A stretch of 49,187 nucleotides of DNA from Campylobacteraceae bacterium. Lineage in GTDB: Bacteria > Campylobacterota > Campylobacteria > Campylobacterales > Sulfurovaceae. The translations under genes were made by a program, and so were the position numbers. The DNA lies in contig JALVUD010000007.1 of NCBI GenBank assembly GCA_027035765.1, forward strand, positions 1-49,187, written 5' to 3'. The notes under the pieces were generated by a model. It did no database searches and was not told where the DNA came from. It was given only the letters and a program-made list of their open reading frames with translations. Shown piece after piece: positions 18,945 to 24,559 of this stretch; within the stretch, counting starts at the first letter, position 1, and each line of letters opens with the position of its first letter.

Positions 18945-19724
18945 ATGAGAGGATTGAAACGCGCTACCGGTGTGATACTCGCCTTTTGTCTGGCGGTCAC
19001 GTTTTCCTATGCCATCGAGATAAAAAGTCTCGCCCAGGCTGTCAACGAAGCGGGCCGTCAGCGGATGTTGACCCAGCGGATGCTCAAAGATTACGCCATG
19101 ATCGGGATCGGCAATACCTTCGGCCATCCCAAAGAGGATCTGAAAAAAACCATGGAAATGTTCGAGGACCATCTGCAGGGCCTGACGGCTTTTGCCACCG
19201 ATCCCGAGACCAAAAAGAGCCTTGAAGAGCAGCGCCGGCTCTGGGAATCTATCAAAAAGATGCTCTCAGAACCACCCAGCAAGGAGAAGGCTGCCGAACT
19301 GCAGGGAAAACTGGACGAGCTGCTCAAAGCGGCGGACCGAACCACCAAGCTTTTCGCCAAGCAGACGGGCAAGAAGTCGGGGGAGATCATCAACATCTCC
19401 GGACGGCAGCGGATGCTCTCCCAGCGCATGGCCAATCTCTATATGCTCAAGGTCTGGGGGATCGACGATCCCAAATTCAAAGAGAAGATGGATGCGGCGA
19501 TGAAGCTCTTCGATGATTCCCTGAAACGCCTGATGAAATCGGATCTGAATACCCCGGAGATCAACAAGCTTCTGGCACGGGTGAAGAACAACTTCATGTT
19601 CTTCCAGGTGATGAACAAGTCCCAGTCCAAGTTCATCCCCTCGCTGATCTATAAAAAATCCAACGAGATCCTGAAAGACATGAACACCGTGACCGGCCTC
19701 TATGCGGCCCAGAAAGTGCAATAA
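18945..19724 (+). CDS. Exported PilJ-type (type IV pili MCP N-terminal) sensor protein, copy 1
   Basis: 259 residues: signal peptide MRGLKRATGVILAFCLAVTFSYA, then two all-helical PilJ/NarX-like modules. Each begins with the ligand-site motif: AGRQRMLTQRMLKDY (about residue 37) and SGRQRMLSQRMANLY (about 150). In NarX/PilJ proteins this GRQRMLSQR helix lines the anion (nitrate/nitrite) pocket. There is no transmembrane or signalling domain, so it should be a free periplasmic sensor. Start: ATG after GGAGAGGAG. It heads a four-gene unit ending in a hybrid kinase. Confidence 0.85.
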   Translation: MRGLKRATGVILAFCLAVTFSYAIEIKSLAQAVNEAGRQRMLTQRMLKDYAMIGIGNTFGHPKEDLKKTMEMFEDHLQGLTAFATDPETKKSLEEQRRLWESIKKMLSEPPSKEKAAELQGKLDELLKAADRTTKLFAKQTGKKSGEIINISGRQRMLSQRMANLYMLKVWGIDDPKFKEKMDAAMKLFDDSLKRLMKSDLNTPEINKLLARVKNNFMFFQVMNKSQSKFIPSLIYKKSNEILKDMNTVTGLYAAQKVQ

Positions 19725-19753
19725 ACCCAACCAACCACATAAGGAGTGATCGA

Positions 19754-20566
19754 ATGAAACAGATACTGAAACGAATCGGCCTGGCACTGGGGATCCTGCT
19801 CCTGGCCGGCAGTCCGGCTGTTCTGGCCGCCGAGACAGGGAAACCGGTCAACGCACTGGTCAAAAAGGATGCGATCCAGTTGATCAATATCGCCGGGAAA
19901 CAGCGGATGCTCTCCCAGCGGATCGCCAAGGACTATCTCTATCTCGGCAAAAAGATCGCCACGGACAAAGCCCGCAAAGAACTCGAAGTTTCGCTGAAAG
20001 AGTTCCGGGCCAATCAGAAAAAGCTGAGTGAGATGATCAACGATCCGGAGATCAAAAACCTCCTCGCCTTCGTCAATATGAGCCTCGAAGAACTGGAAGG
20101 CATCGTCAAGAAGCCTTTCAGTCTGGACAACGCCCAGCTGGTCCTGGACCTGAGCGAATCGATGCTGGAAGGGAGCCAGTATGTGGTCGACTCCCTCAAG
20201 AAACTGGCCAATATCAAAGAATCCAAAGTGGTCGCGACTGCCGGAAAACAGCGGATGCTGGCCCAACGGATCGCCAAATACTATATCGCCTATCAGGCCG
20301 GAATCAAGGACAAAAACACCATCGATCAGATGAAGGCGGCGGTCTCGGAGTTTGACAAGAACCTCAAGGCCCTGATGCAGAACAAAGACAACACCGCGAC
20401 CATCAACCAGAAGCTGGCCAAGGTCGATCGTCTCTGGAAGATCGTCTACAAGTTCTATCTCAACATTGAAAAAGGCGGTCTTCCTTTCATTGTCTATACC
20501 ACCACCAACGATATCACCAAAGAGATGGATGCGATCACCAAGCTCTATGTGGAACTCTACAAATAA
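19754..20566 (+). CDS. Exported PilJ-type sensor protein, copy 2
   Basis: 270 residues: signal peptide (LALGILLLAGSPAVLAAE), then the same two-module layout as its upstream neighbour with AGKQRMLSQRIAKDYLY (about residue 53) and AGKQRMLAQRIAKYY (about 165). The second module ends with a long helix ITKEMDAITKLY as in copy 1 (LKDMNTVTGLY), so the two are tandem paralogues. AAGGAG precedes the ATG. Probably secreted to the periplasm to bind a small anion and report to the membrane kinase encoded downstream. Confidence 0.85.
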   Translation: MKQILKRIGLALGILLLAGSPAVLAAETGKPVNALVKKDAIQLINIAGKQRMLSQRIAKDYLYLGKKIATDKARKELEVSLKEFRANQKKLSEMINDPEIKNLLAFVNMSLEELEGIVKKPFSLDNAQLVLDLSESMLEGSQYVVDSLKKLANIKESKVVATAGKQRMLAQRIAKYYIAYQAGIKDKNTIDQMKAAVSEFDKNLKALMQNKDNTATINQKLAKVDRLWKIVYKFYLNIEKGGLPFIVYTTTNDITKEMDAITKLYVELYK

Positions 20567-20617
20567 AATGGCATACATCGGAGAGATTATGAAGCAAGAC
20601 GAAGGGAGAGGAGATCA

Positions 20618-21376: not shown

Positions 21377-21391
21377 AGCAGAGGAAACGAA

Positions 21392-24300
21392 ATGAAAAAA
21401 CTGAATCAGAAACTCCTTTTCGCCCTGCTCTTCATCCCGACTCTCGCGATCATTGCAGCTCTCGGATGGTTCGCTTTCCAGAGTTATCAGACCTACCGTG
21501 CCGAGGAGCGCAACCTGGCCCGTCTGGAGCTCATTCGGCAGGGACATACACTGCTCGATGCCCTGGAGCAGGAGCGTCTGGAGAGCGCGCTTTATCTGGC
21601 AGCGGCCGGCTCCCGGCATCAAAAAGGGCTCCGGGCAGCCCGGGCCAAGGTTGACCGGACCTTGCAGACCCTGCAGCCCAGACTCAAAGGGGCTGCCGAT
21701 GGGGTTTTCGCCAACGTCGGCAAAGAACTGCATGATTTCAGGAGCGGGATCGATGCCCTAAGCTCCAACTACCATGATCTGCTGGCGGATCGCTTCCAGA
21801 AGAAGATCCTGGAGCCTCTGATCGGGCTCTACCCCGGTGAGATCTCCATGGTTCGCAATCCCATCAGCACCATGGCCCTGAGCTACGACAGTCGCCTGAT
21901 CCGGCTGGCCGCCGACAACGACCTGGAGCGGAGTTTCATCGCCTACTTTGTCGGGGCTGCCAAGGCGATCCCGGTCAAAGGGCTCAAAAGCTGGGACCGG
22001 GCCATTGCTGGGGATGTGCTGCCGGATCCGGGGCGGATCACCGATTTGCAACTGCGACGCAAGATCAGTAATATCCTCCAACCGGAGCGCTACGCCTCCC
22101 TCCTCAATCACGCCCGACAACAGGTGCTCTACGGGATCAACGACGGCAAATACCCTCTGACGGAGACCACCTGGGTCAAACAGGCGAGTGAGCGGCTGAA
22201 ACTGCTCCGGGAGAGCAGCAATCTGCTGCAGAAGCATGCTTTCAATGAGATCACCGGCACCCGGGAGACGATCCGGACACAACTGATCCAGTATCTGGTT
22301 GCCGCCGCCTTCTTCCTGCTGCTTCTGATTATCCTGGCGGTGATCTTCTACAACACCAGCAAAGAGTCGAAGCTGCTGGACGAGACCCTCAAGAACATCC
22401 AGTTCGAGCTGGATCCCCAGAAGAAACGGGAGCTCCAGCGGATCGTCGAGAGCCGGGATCTGGTGGCGATCTATAATTTCCTGGGAGAGACCATCGTCGA
22501 GGCCAACAAGGCCAAAGACCTCTTCCTGGCCAACATGTCCCATGAGATCCGGACGCCCCTCAACGGAATCGTCGGCTTCACCCAGCTGCTCAAGAATACG
22601 CCGTTGACTCCGGACCAGGAGGAGTTCATTTCCGTCATCGAGAACAGTTCGGAGAATCTCCTCAACATTGTCAATGACATTCTGGACCTCTCCAAGATCA
22701 ACGCCGACAAGGTGGAACTGGAGGAGATCGCCTTCAATGCCATCGAGAAGTTCGAGGATGCCGTGGAGTCCTACGGGGCCAAAGCGGCGGAGAAAAACAT
22801 CGAATTCGGCGTCTACGTCGATCCCACTATCCCCAAGACCCTTGTCGGCGATCCCACCAAGATCTCCCAGGTTATCGTCAACCTGGTGAGCAACGCCATC
22901 AAGTTCACCAATTCCAACGGCGAGGTGGAGGTGGTCATCGAGAAGCGGGAGGAGACCAAGAAGGATGCGACCCTCTACTTTGCCGTCCGGGACAACGGAA
23001 TCGGCATCTCAGAGGAGCAGAAAGAGAAGATCTTCGAAGCCTTCGCCCAGGCCGATGCGGGAACCAGCCGCAAATACGGCGGAACCGGACTGGGACTGGC
23101 GATCTCCAGCAAGCTGATCGAACGGATGGGCGGCAAGCTCGATATCGAGAGCGAAGTGGGCAAAGGGGCGACCTTCTTCTTCACGTTGACGCTGCCCAAA
23201 GGGCCGGATCAGGAGAAAGAGACCCCCGATTTCAGCGGGGTTACCGCTGCGGCAGTTCTGCCCGATGCGGTCAAGGACCGGATCACGGCGGAGAATCTGC
23301 GGCGCTATGCCGAGTATCTGGGTGCCGATTTCCGGATTATCCACTATTCGGATATCTTCGACAAGGAGTCACCGGAACTGCCGGATGTACTCTTCGTAGA
23401 GCACCAGTATGTGCGTCGGGGACGGGAACTGGATATGTTCCTGGATCTGGATACCAGTGTGGTCCTCATCACCACCGGGGTCATGAAGAAAGCAGCGGAG
23501 GCGGTCAGCGATCGGGTCAGCAAAGTCGTCTACAAACCGGTCAACTACCATAAGACCATTCGGGCCTTCGAAAGTGCTCTGAGCCGGGTCAGACAGCCCC
23601 GACCAACTGCAACGGCGATCGAAAAGCCGGCCGAGACCTTCGAAAACCTGCGGATCCTGGTGGCCGAGGACAATCCCATCAACCAAAAATTGATCCGTAC
23701 CACTCTGGAGCAGTTCGGAGCGGTCGTCACCCTGGCGGCCAACGGTCAGGAGGCCTTCGATCTGCGCAAACAGAACGACTATGATCTGATCTTCATGGAT
23801 ATCCAGATGCCGGTGATGAACGGGATCGAAGCGACCAAAGAGATTCTGCATTACGAACAGGTCAACCGCCTGCCCCATGTTCCCATCATCGCCCTGACCG
23901 CCAATGCTCTGACCGGAGACCGGGAGCGCTATCTCGAAGCGGGGATGGACAACTACCTGCCCAAACCGATCAATATCGCCGAGCTCAAAAAGATGATCGA
24001 GCACTACCACACCCAGAAGCAGTCGGAGGAGACGGCGGAAGCCAAAAGTGTCAGCGAAGCCACGCCTCAGCCGCGACGGGAAGAGAGGGCTCCCCAGGCG
24101 GTGTCAAGCCCCGCAGAGGAGCCGGAGCCGTCCGTATCCGAAGAGGTCCCGGCCACATCGGAACCGGAGCCTGCCGCCGTTGTCGAACCGTCACCTGGCG
24201 CGGAGAAGACGGAACGGAGTGAGGGAGCGGATGTGATGCTTTTTGTGCGATCGCCGCTGCTGGAAAAGATCTATGAGAAGATGCTGCGGCGCCAGGGCTT

Positions 24301-24559
24301 CAGCGTCGAAGGTGTCACCAACGAGAACGATCTGGTCGAAGCGATGGACCGCCATCGTTACCGCTACGTCCTTATCGACGGCGGCAGCCTCGATCTGGAC
24401 GATACCGAGTGCCTGCTGATCGAGACGCTGATGGAGGCGGGAGTGGAGCCCTATATCCTGGTCAACGAAGAGACGGCCCGTCCCCATCCCTGTGCCGAGA
24501 CCATTTCCGTCCCCCATTTCCCGGCCGAGATCCGTACCAAGCTTCAACGCAGCGCCTGA
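21392..24559 (+). CDS. Hybrid histidine kinase with NIT sensor and multiple receiver domains
   Basis: 1055 residues. Helix 1 (about 8-28), a periplasmic NIT (nitrate/nitrite-sensing) domain (about 38-300; [23 protein letters not shown]), helix 2 (about 303-325), HisKA with [11 protein letters not shown] (His384), HATPase with [16 protein letters not shown] and [10 protein letters not shown] degenerate receiver (about 618-740) lacks the Asp. A true receiver (about 748-870) has FMDIQMP (Asp803) and LPKP. A Pro/Glu-rich linker and another degenerate receiver (about 945-1055, [10 protein letters not shown]) close it. No Hpt or output domain is encoded here, so it must pass phosphate to a partner elsewhere. 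The three PilJ-type proteins upstream are likely sensory partners. Confidence 0.9.

Follow-up and report, generated by a model that had tools for sequence, protein, structure and literature searches.

How might a bacterium sense an anion in its periplasm when receptor modules and kinase are encoded as separate proteins? This question is raised by a stretch of 49,187 nucleotides, hereafter the window, from a Campylobacteraceae bacterium of the Sulfurovaceae (contig JALVUD010000007.1 of assembly GCA_027035765.1), where three genes for exported PilJ-related proteins, here called A, B and C, precede a gene, K, for a hybrid histidine kinase with a NIT sensor domain (positions 18945 to 24559). The explanation that we favour, with a little better than even confidence, is that the soluble proteins A and B detect nitrate, or an oxyanion like it, and that the signal reaches K via C, in an operon gated by a cyclic dinucleotide. 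We also consider it somewhat probable that the A-B-C-K genes serve as a signalling operon in Sulfurovaceae and in closely related families. Well supported as a conserved unit is the design itself, in which free receptor domains that share the fold of the kinase sensor are encoded before a NIT kinase.

The four open reading frames (ORFs) lie on the forward strand, as do the motifs, domains and riboswitch described below, with short gaps between them and at the positions given in the initial annotation. Genes A (18945..19724, 259 residues) and B (19754..20566, 270 residues) encode exported double-PilJ proteins; in both, Pfam detects PilJ (PF13675, gathering threshold 26.6 bits) in two stretches, with 85.4 bits (E 3.7e-24) in A and 76.2 bits (E 2.7e-21) in B. 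An in-frame ATG of A is also present at 18786, and 18945 is favoured because it is preceded by GAGAGGAGAG and followed by a signal-like N terminus, as judged by eye. Gene C (20618..21376, 252 residues) gave no PilJ match in Pfam, although its exported product is a full-length homologue of B (hhalign profile-profile comparison, probability 99.9%, E 4.6e-34); A is also a relative of B (profile comparison, 100%). The initial annotation had described three exported proteins made of paired PilJ modules, which holds for A and B and, for C, only as far as homology to B. Each of the three has a single hydrophobic stretch, which is N-terminal, and the putative cleavage motifs SYA, VLA and LSA were read by eye. 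Among homologues, whose ORF starts are uncurated, an N-terminal hydrophobic stretch is present in 64/71 A, 56/61 B and 54/56 C proteins and a hydrophobic stretch further along the chain in 2, 0 and 6, respectively; A, B and C are presumably located in the periplasm.

K (21392..24559, 1055 residues) starts with a sensor composed of a transmembrane segment, a periplasmic NIT domain and a second transmembrane segment (21392..22381); the NIT match (PF08376) scores 34.8 bits against a cut-off of 24.9 (E 2.9e-8) and covers about 92 of 239 profile positions. The sensor is followed by HisKA (residues 374-438, 22511..22705, E 4e-23), HATPase_c (residues 486-602, 22847..23197, E 6e-31) and a receiver domain (residues 755-870, 23654..24001, E 1.9e-32), and with its H-box and the phosphorylated Asp motif of the receiver K has all the parts of a hybrid histidine kinase. 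ORFs and Pfam thus agree with the initial annotation on a tandem arrangement with a NIT hybrid kinase devoid of Hpt or output domain: Pfam finds neither in K, and one receiver only. In long K proteins the H-box is present in 35/35 and the receiver motif in 34/35. Membership among the nitrate-sensing kinases NarX/NarQ was rejected, because A and B lack a kinase domain and the sensor of K is of the NIT and not of the PilJ type. The operon is flanked upstream by a divergent aminotransferase-like gene and downstream by a thioredoxin-like gene, both named by eye.

Searching GTDB genomes with B yielded 62 loci (numbered with the prefix L); since the search picks up only close relatives of B, the counts describe B's own family. 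All 62 are titled as Campylobacterota or Epsilonproteobacteria groups, including Nitratifractor, Sulfurovum, Sulfurospirillum and Helicobacteraceae. Three of them (L009, L050, L054) end before K could be visible, which leaves 59 informative loci: K is present in 57 and C stands between B and K in 56, a recurrence of the order B-C-K because of which the operon cannot be a chance arrangement. The proximity of PilJ proteins to NIT kinases, for which the initial annotation had pointed to genome neighbourhoods, is hence confirmed, and homologous operons without the kinase, which it had regarded as contrary to its idea, are rare: 2/59 (L016 and L063, both A-B), plus the divergent L101. The full set is present in L061, whose assembly series is also the source of L063. 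In L060 a different PilJ-like gene sits between B and K, and neighbouring A genes are paired in 13/62 maps. B was found in 12/298 genomes of a draw across the phylum (E <=1e-20), in two families of the order, and in 73/175 genomes of the window's family (E <=1e-40).

One line of evidence for a nitrate-like ligand is a motif. In McpN, R61 of the N-box motif holds nitrate at the dimer axis (PMC6381276), and G-x-x-R is the nitrate motif of sensor kinases (PMC8199190). With the pattern [IVL][ND]xAGxQRML[ST]Q, taken from PMC6381276, A matches exactly in its first half (VNEAGRQRMLTQ, 19041..19076) and with one mismatch in its second (INISGRQRMLSQ, 19389..19424); B matches exactly in its first half (INIAGKQRMLSQ, 19883..19918), as do 55/61 of its homologues, and carries an N-box-like motif in its second (VATAGKQRMLAQ, 20231..20266), with two mismatches and G-x-x-R kept. 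G-x-x-R is retained in both halves of 64/71 A and 57/61 B proteins, and at least one exact N-box occurs in 34/71 and 58/61, respectively. C and K of the window do not match the pattern, and an exact N-box was found in 0/56 C, 0/46 K and 0/707 other ORFs of the loci. In the first half of C homologues the Arg is kept in 43/56, accompanied by the Gly in 2, and in the second half the Arg is kept in 3/56. Three equal sensors were therefore rejected: with the motif lost, C is improbable as a third one.

The arrangement of the two halves was approached with AlphaFold2 models, built on family alignments, of B (predicted local distance difference test, pLDDT, 89.4) and of K residues 1-330 (pLDDT 92.9). 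With VIA-align, the top match of both is the NIT domain of NasR (4akk_B): Z 18.8 over 234 residues at 3.5 A for B, and Z 25.5 over 264 residues at 4.3 A for the K sensor, whose runner-up has Z 10.2. The Pfam score above cut-off and this NasR-like predicted fold together place the K sensor in the NIT class. Single halves of B match PilJ (7zjr, Z 16.2), McpN (6gcv, Z 15.7) or NarQ (5iji, Z 13.2) at 1.9-2.3 A; the Z of 18.8 for whole B exceeds about 13, the tool's level for common helical-bundle matches, with a small margin over the single-bundle matches. Sequence profiles matched the periplasmic region of Pseudomonas aeruginosa PilJ (7zjr, 8wdf), and P0002 by itself gave a single weak PDB match, McpN (E 0.29). 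No sequence homology was found between the K sensor and B (hhalign, 4.4%), so that they are linked by predicted fold alone, and the K-sensor profile found no convincing relative among PDB sequences. A and B, and C by virtue of its homology, thus resemble NIT-fold receptor domains set free beside a membrane NIT kinase.

A further indication is given by the co-divergence of the partners over 30 operons with long kinases, measured as distance correlations from which the kinase core was regressed out. The correlation between C and K-sensor distances is 0.834 raw and 0.593 after this regression, which also leaves 0.596 for B-C, 0.513 for B-K sensor, 0.423 for A-B, 0.434 for A-C and 0.213 for A-K sensor (p 0.057). 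This pattern fits C and B touching the K sensor; a history shared beyond the kinase core could produce it as well.

From these data we infer the ligand, the intramolecular site, the roles and order of the partners and the path of the phosphate as follows. A and B would be soluble receptors in the periplasm, each built from two PilJ four-helix bundles placed in tandem as in a NIT domain; the two G-x-x-R motifs of one chain could then lie opposite each other and hold a single nitrate, or an oxyanion like it, within one protein. Nitrate is the likely ligand. C, the motif-less member of the family, would link these two receptors to K's NIT domain; its role and the order A-B-C-K are put forward as hypotheses. 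K would autophosphorylate and pass the phosphate to its own receiver, then to a separate Hpt protein and on to a response regulator. The genome of the window has a single Hpt match, adjoining a second NIT kinase, and this Hpt protein is a candidate relay for K. The second kinase belongs to a cluster (L105:4178-9780, contig C45) of a NIT hybrid kinase, the Hpt protein, a PAS-like protein and a single receiver, the last two named by eye, and similar clusters are present in L089 and L092. The initial annotation had proposed a periplasmic multi-protein oxyanion sensor with K as its membrane part; linkage, NIT-like models, the motif of A and B and co-divergence make this the best-supported interpretation, once C is no longer counted as an equal sensor.

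A second input is suggested by the leader of the operon. Just outside the stretch first annotated, and missed by the initial annotation, a riboswitch aptamer lies 169 nucleotides upstream of A; it is of the c-di-GMP-I-GGC class (RF03167; 18691..18775; 73.7 bits against a gathering threshold of 59, E 1.4e-16). Rfam finds the same class before A in 5/8 near loci (L007 and L010-L013) and no riboswitch in nine more loci; the riboswitch leader is therefore not universal. A model built from eight examples, six by Rfam (from the window and these loci) and two others, all of which match by construction, was searched over 87 sources (1,276,412 bases) selected around PilJ/NIT operons. It gave 24 matches, 24/24 of them ahead of such operons, a result that shows position and not genome-wide specificity because the sources had been chosen around them; c-di-GMP-I-GGC copies reach up to 21 per family genome. 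Thirteen of the 24 stand before A-type genes of A-B-C-K runs, in 12 sources including the window, nine before NIT kinases without PilJ partners, one before the B'-C'-K genes of L097 and one in L092, at a PAS-Hpt-NIT-kinase cluster. L025 contributes two, its PilJ operon having one riboswitch ahead of each A-type gene (L025:7769-8980). The partner-less kinases of 870-900 residues (L082-L088, L090, L091, L093) have the riboswitch ahead in 9/10, the exception being L085.

Over the 24 sequences, in an alignment fitted to the model, 95.4% of pair cells are paired and two-sided changes occur at 12/21 pairs. The first pair of the pocket-adjacent helix, located by reading the alignment, is C-G in 24/24 against G-C in the Rfam consensus, and related riboswitches that bind cyclic AMP-GMP exist (PMC7266159). 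We infer from sequence a probable cyclic-dinucleotide ligand and a probable effect on the operon, whose expression would be controlled by a c-di-GMP-I-type riboswitch in the genome of the window and in some other members of the clade. A scan for promoters and terminators stayed at about chance level, and a hairpin after the aptamer, seen in a single fold, is not put forward as a terminator. The window's genome has four matches with E <1e-12; the other three lie before a gene for a HATPase-receiver protein, before an HU-like gene (named by eye) and at a place without a clear target gene. Among type-I A-B-C-K leaders of at least 300 nucleotides the riboswitch is present in 13/42, and among type-II leaders with enough sequence in 0/9.

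This second type, found in 13/62 loci (L017, L019, L021, L028, L034, L036, L039, L042, L045, L046, L057, L062, L068), consists of A-B-C and a shorter NIT protein without receiver; L057 is cut and shows B-C. The H-box is absent from the 11 complete NIT proteins of this type, and of four scanned with Pfam one has a weak HATPase, so that kinase activity is doubtful here. A possible pseudokinase output was noted in all these loci except L045 and L068, and in L062 the NIT membrane protein ends after the sensor. Outside these operons, the window's genome encodes a lone A-like exported protein of 260 residues without N-box (L107:5517-6299, contig C40), with no adjoining kinase gene within the 12 kb read, and weak A-like genes resembling it are also present in L012 and L064.

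Several results weigh against nitrate sensing by A and B with C as coupler. The models are confined to B and the K sensor; Foldseek results for B are weak (4akk at E 0.18, no match at <=0.001), and high Z values come easily to helical bundles. The exact N-box is present in the second half of just 11/61 B proteins and in the two halves of 18/71 and 16/71 A proteins. PilJ of P. aeruginosa, a double-PilJ sensor, has no N-box and does not bind nitrate (PMC6381276). The riboswitch is missing from 29/42 type-I leaders. Divergent relatives, moreover, retain the operon with an A or B that has no G-x-x-R, and the architecture therefore does not demand nitrate. Nine further loci, picked for weaker B matches (L094-L102), carry B'-C'-K (L094-L097), A'-C'-K (L099, L100, L102), a pair cut at the contig end (L098) or a pair without kinase (L101), and in their PilJ-family proteins no G-x-x-R followed by an aliphatic residue, Met or Phe was found, except near the N terminus in L097. 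Finally, 11/73 genomes with B have no match to the periplasmic nitrate reductase NapA; NarG was rejected as an explanation, being matched in 0/11 of them.

These last two observations bear on the first alternative, in which the same soluble receptors bind an oxyanion other than nitrate, such as nitrite, sulfite, thiosulfate or another one used by these sulfur oxidisers. NarX-type sites accept nitrate, nitrite and sulfite (PMC6381276), which fits such a ligand too. G-x-x-R and the N-box are near-invariant in canonical A and B, however, and NapA is enriched in genomes with B: it is present in 122/175 family genomes, in 62/73 with B against 60/102 without (p 2e-4), and, among genomes with completeness of 90% or more and contamination of 5% or less, in 35/40 against 28/50 (p 0.0012), both p values being uncorrected for relatedness. 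We regard a different ligand as fairly unlikely.

A bolder form of the favoured explanation would make K a hub for exchangeable soluble receptors: A and B would report nitrate, motif-less receptors other inputs, C would be the common adaptor, and a cyclic-dinucleotide riboswitch would decide when the receptor set is produced, so that nitrate sensing is switched with lifestyle. Some motif-less receptors stand beside a di-haem peroxidase gene. In fact, CCP_MauG (di-haem cytochrome c peroxidase) is encoded directly upstream of an A gene in L037 (8226-9218), L047 (8161-9171), L050 (1499-2509) and L066 (8236-9228), and the A proteins that follow are among the 7/71 in which one or both halves lack G-x-x-R; that of L047 keeps the first. 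As a whole, the hub is a tentative proposal that we hold to be unlikely.

It could also be that the NIT domain of K is sufficient for nitrate sensing, and that A, B and C are co-transcribed periplasmic proteins whose role is to buffer the anion or hand it on, to Nap for example, without touching K. NIT kinases of the same family do stand without PilJ partners: the K sensor is matched in 154/175 family genomes and B in 73, and no PilJ gene was found near the partner-less kinases of the 12 loci fetched (L082-L093). Furthermore, the window's K has both Arg positions of NIT that we take to be the NasR ligands, and its NIT domain may itself bind a ligand, another point against the favoured explanation. 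Both positions are kept in 8/39 relatives, the second being mostly not conserved, which speaks against sensing by K alone. The Arg pair says little either way on a loss of sensing in K, because the window's K retains both and partner-less kinases also mostly lose the second. The order B-C-K retained in 56/59 loci, the co-divergence that C and B show with the K sensor over and above the kinase core, and the location of NapA on another contig of the window's genome all argue against this alternative, which we find quite improbable. That redox or envelope state is sensed instead of a small anion, with the di-haem peroxidase as the true input, would suit the four A proteins deficient in the motif but is very improbable, as the peroxidase occurs in just 4/62 loci and a second A upstream of it (L037, L050) keeps the motif in both halves.

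The proposed nitrate sensing by A and B, relayed via C to K, can be compared with known systems. Nitrate-binding PilJ domains are known within receptors, kinases, cyclases and regulators (PMC6381276). The sensor domains of McpN and NarX/NarQ share with A and B the four-helix half bearing G-x-x-R, but they are single bundles in membrane receptors with the site between two subunits, whereas A and B are soluble tandems. The periplasmic region of P. aeruginosa PilJ has two consecutive PilJ modules, as A and B do; it belongs, however, to a membrane chemoreceptor without N-box, and the structural match spans one half of B. With the NIT domain of NasR the models of B and of the K sensor share their arrangement over the whole length, and NasR has an asymmetric nitrate site that uses both arginines (PMC8199190); in contrast, NasR is a one-component antiterminator, and A and B carry PilJ and not NIT sequence motifs. 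In the same family there are also the partner-less NIT hybrid kinases of L082-L093, which have a homologous sensor and frequently the riboswitch, but no A, B or C. Secreted PilJ proteins that stand alone next to NIT kinases were not found described in the open-licence literature, and the text of PMC6682613 mentions neither PilJ nor nitrate sensing.

If the proposed scheme is true, sensor domain and kinase are separable parts that get recombined, and Sulfurovaceae, many of which have periplasmic nitrate reductase, gain a candidate nitrate sensor, which the riboswitch ahead would tie to a cyclic dinucleotide. Membrane kinases that work with a periplasmic partner include TorS with TorT and LuxQ with LuxP. 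GtrS with GltB (PMC7927077) and QseE with QseG (PMC12691602) are further examples. In all four the membrane kinase receives its input from a periplasmic protein, either soluble or lipid-anchored. Among such systems we know of none whose partners share the fold of the kinase's sensor, and of none with three paralogues. A kinase with a periplasmic partner is a known kind of system, and soluble receptors of the PilJ/NIT fold would be a variant of that kind.

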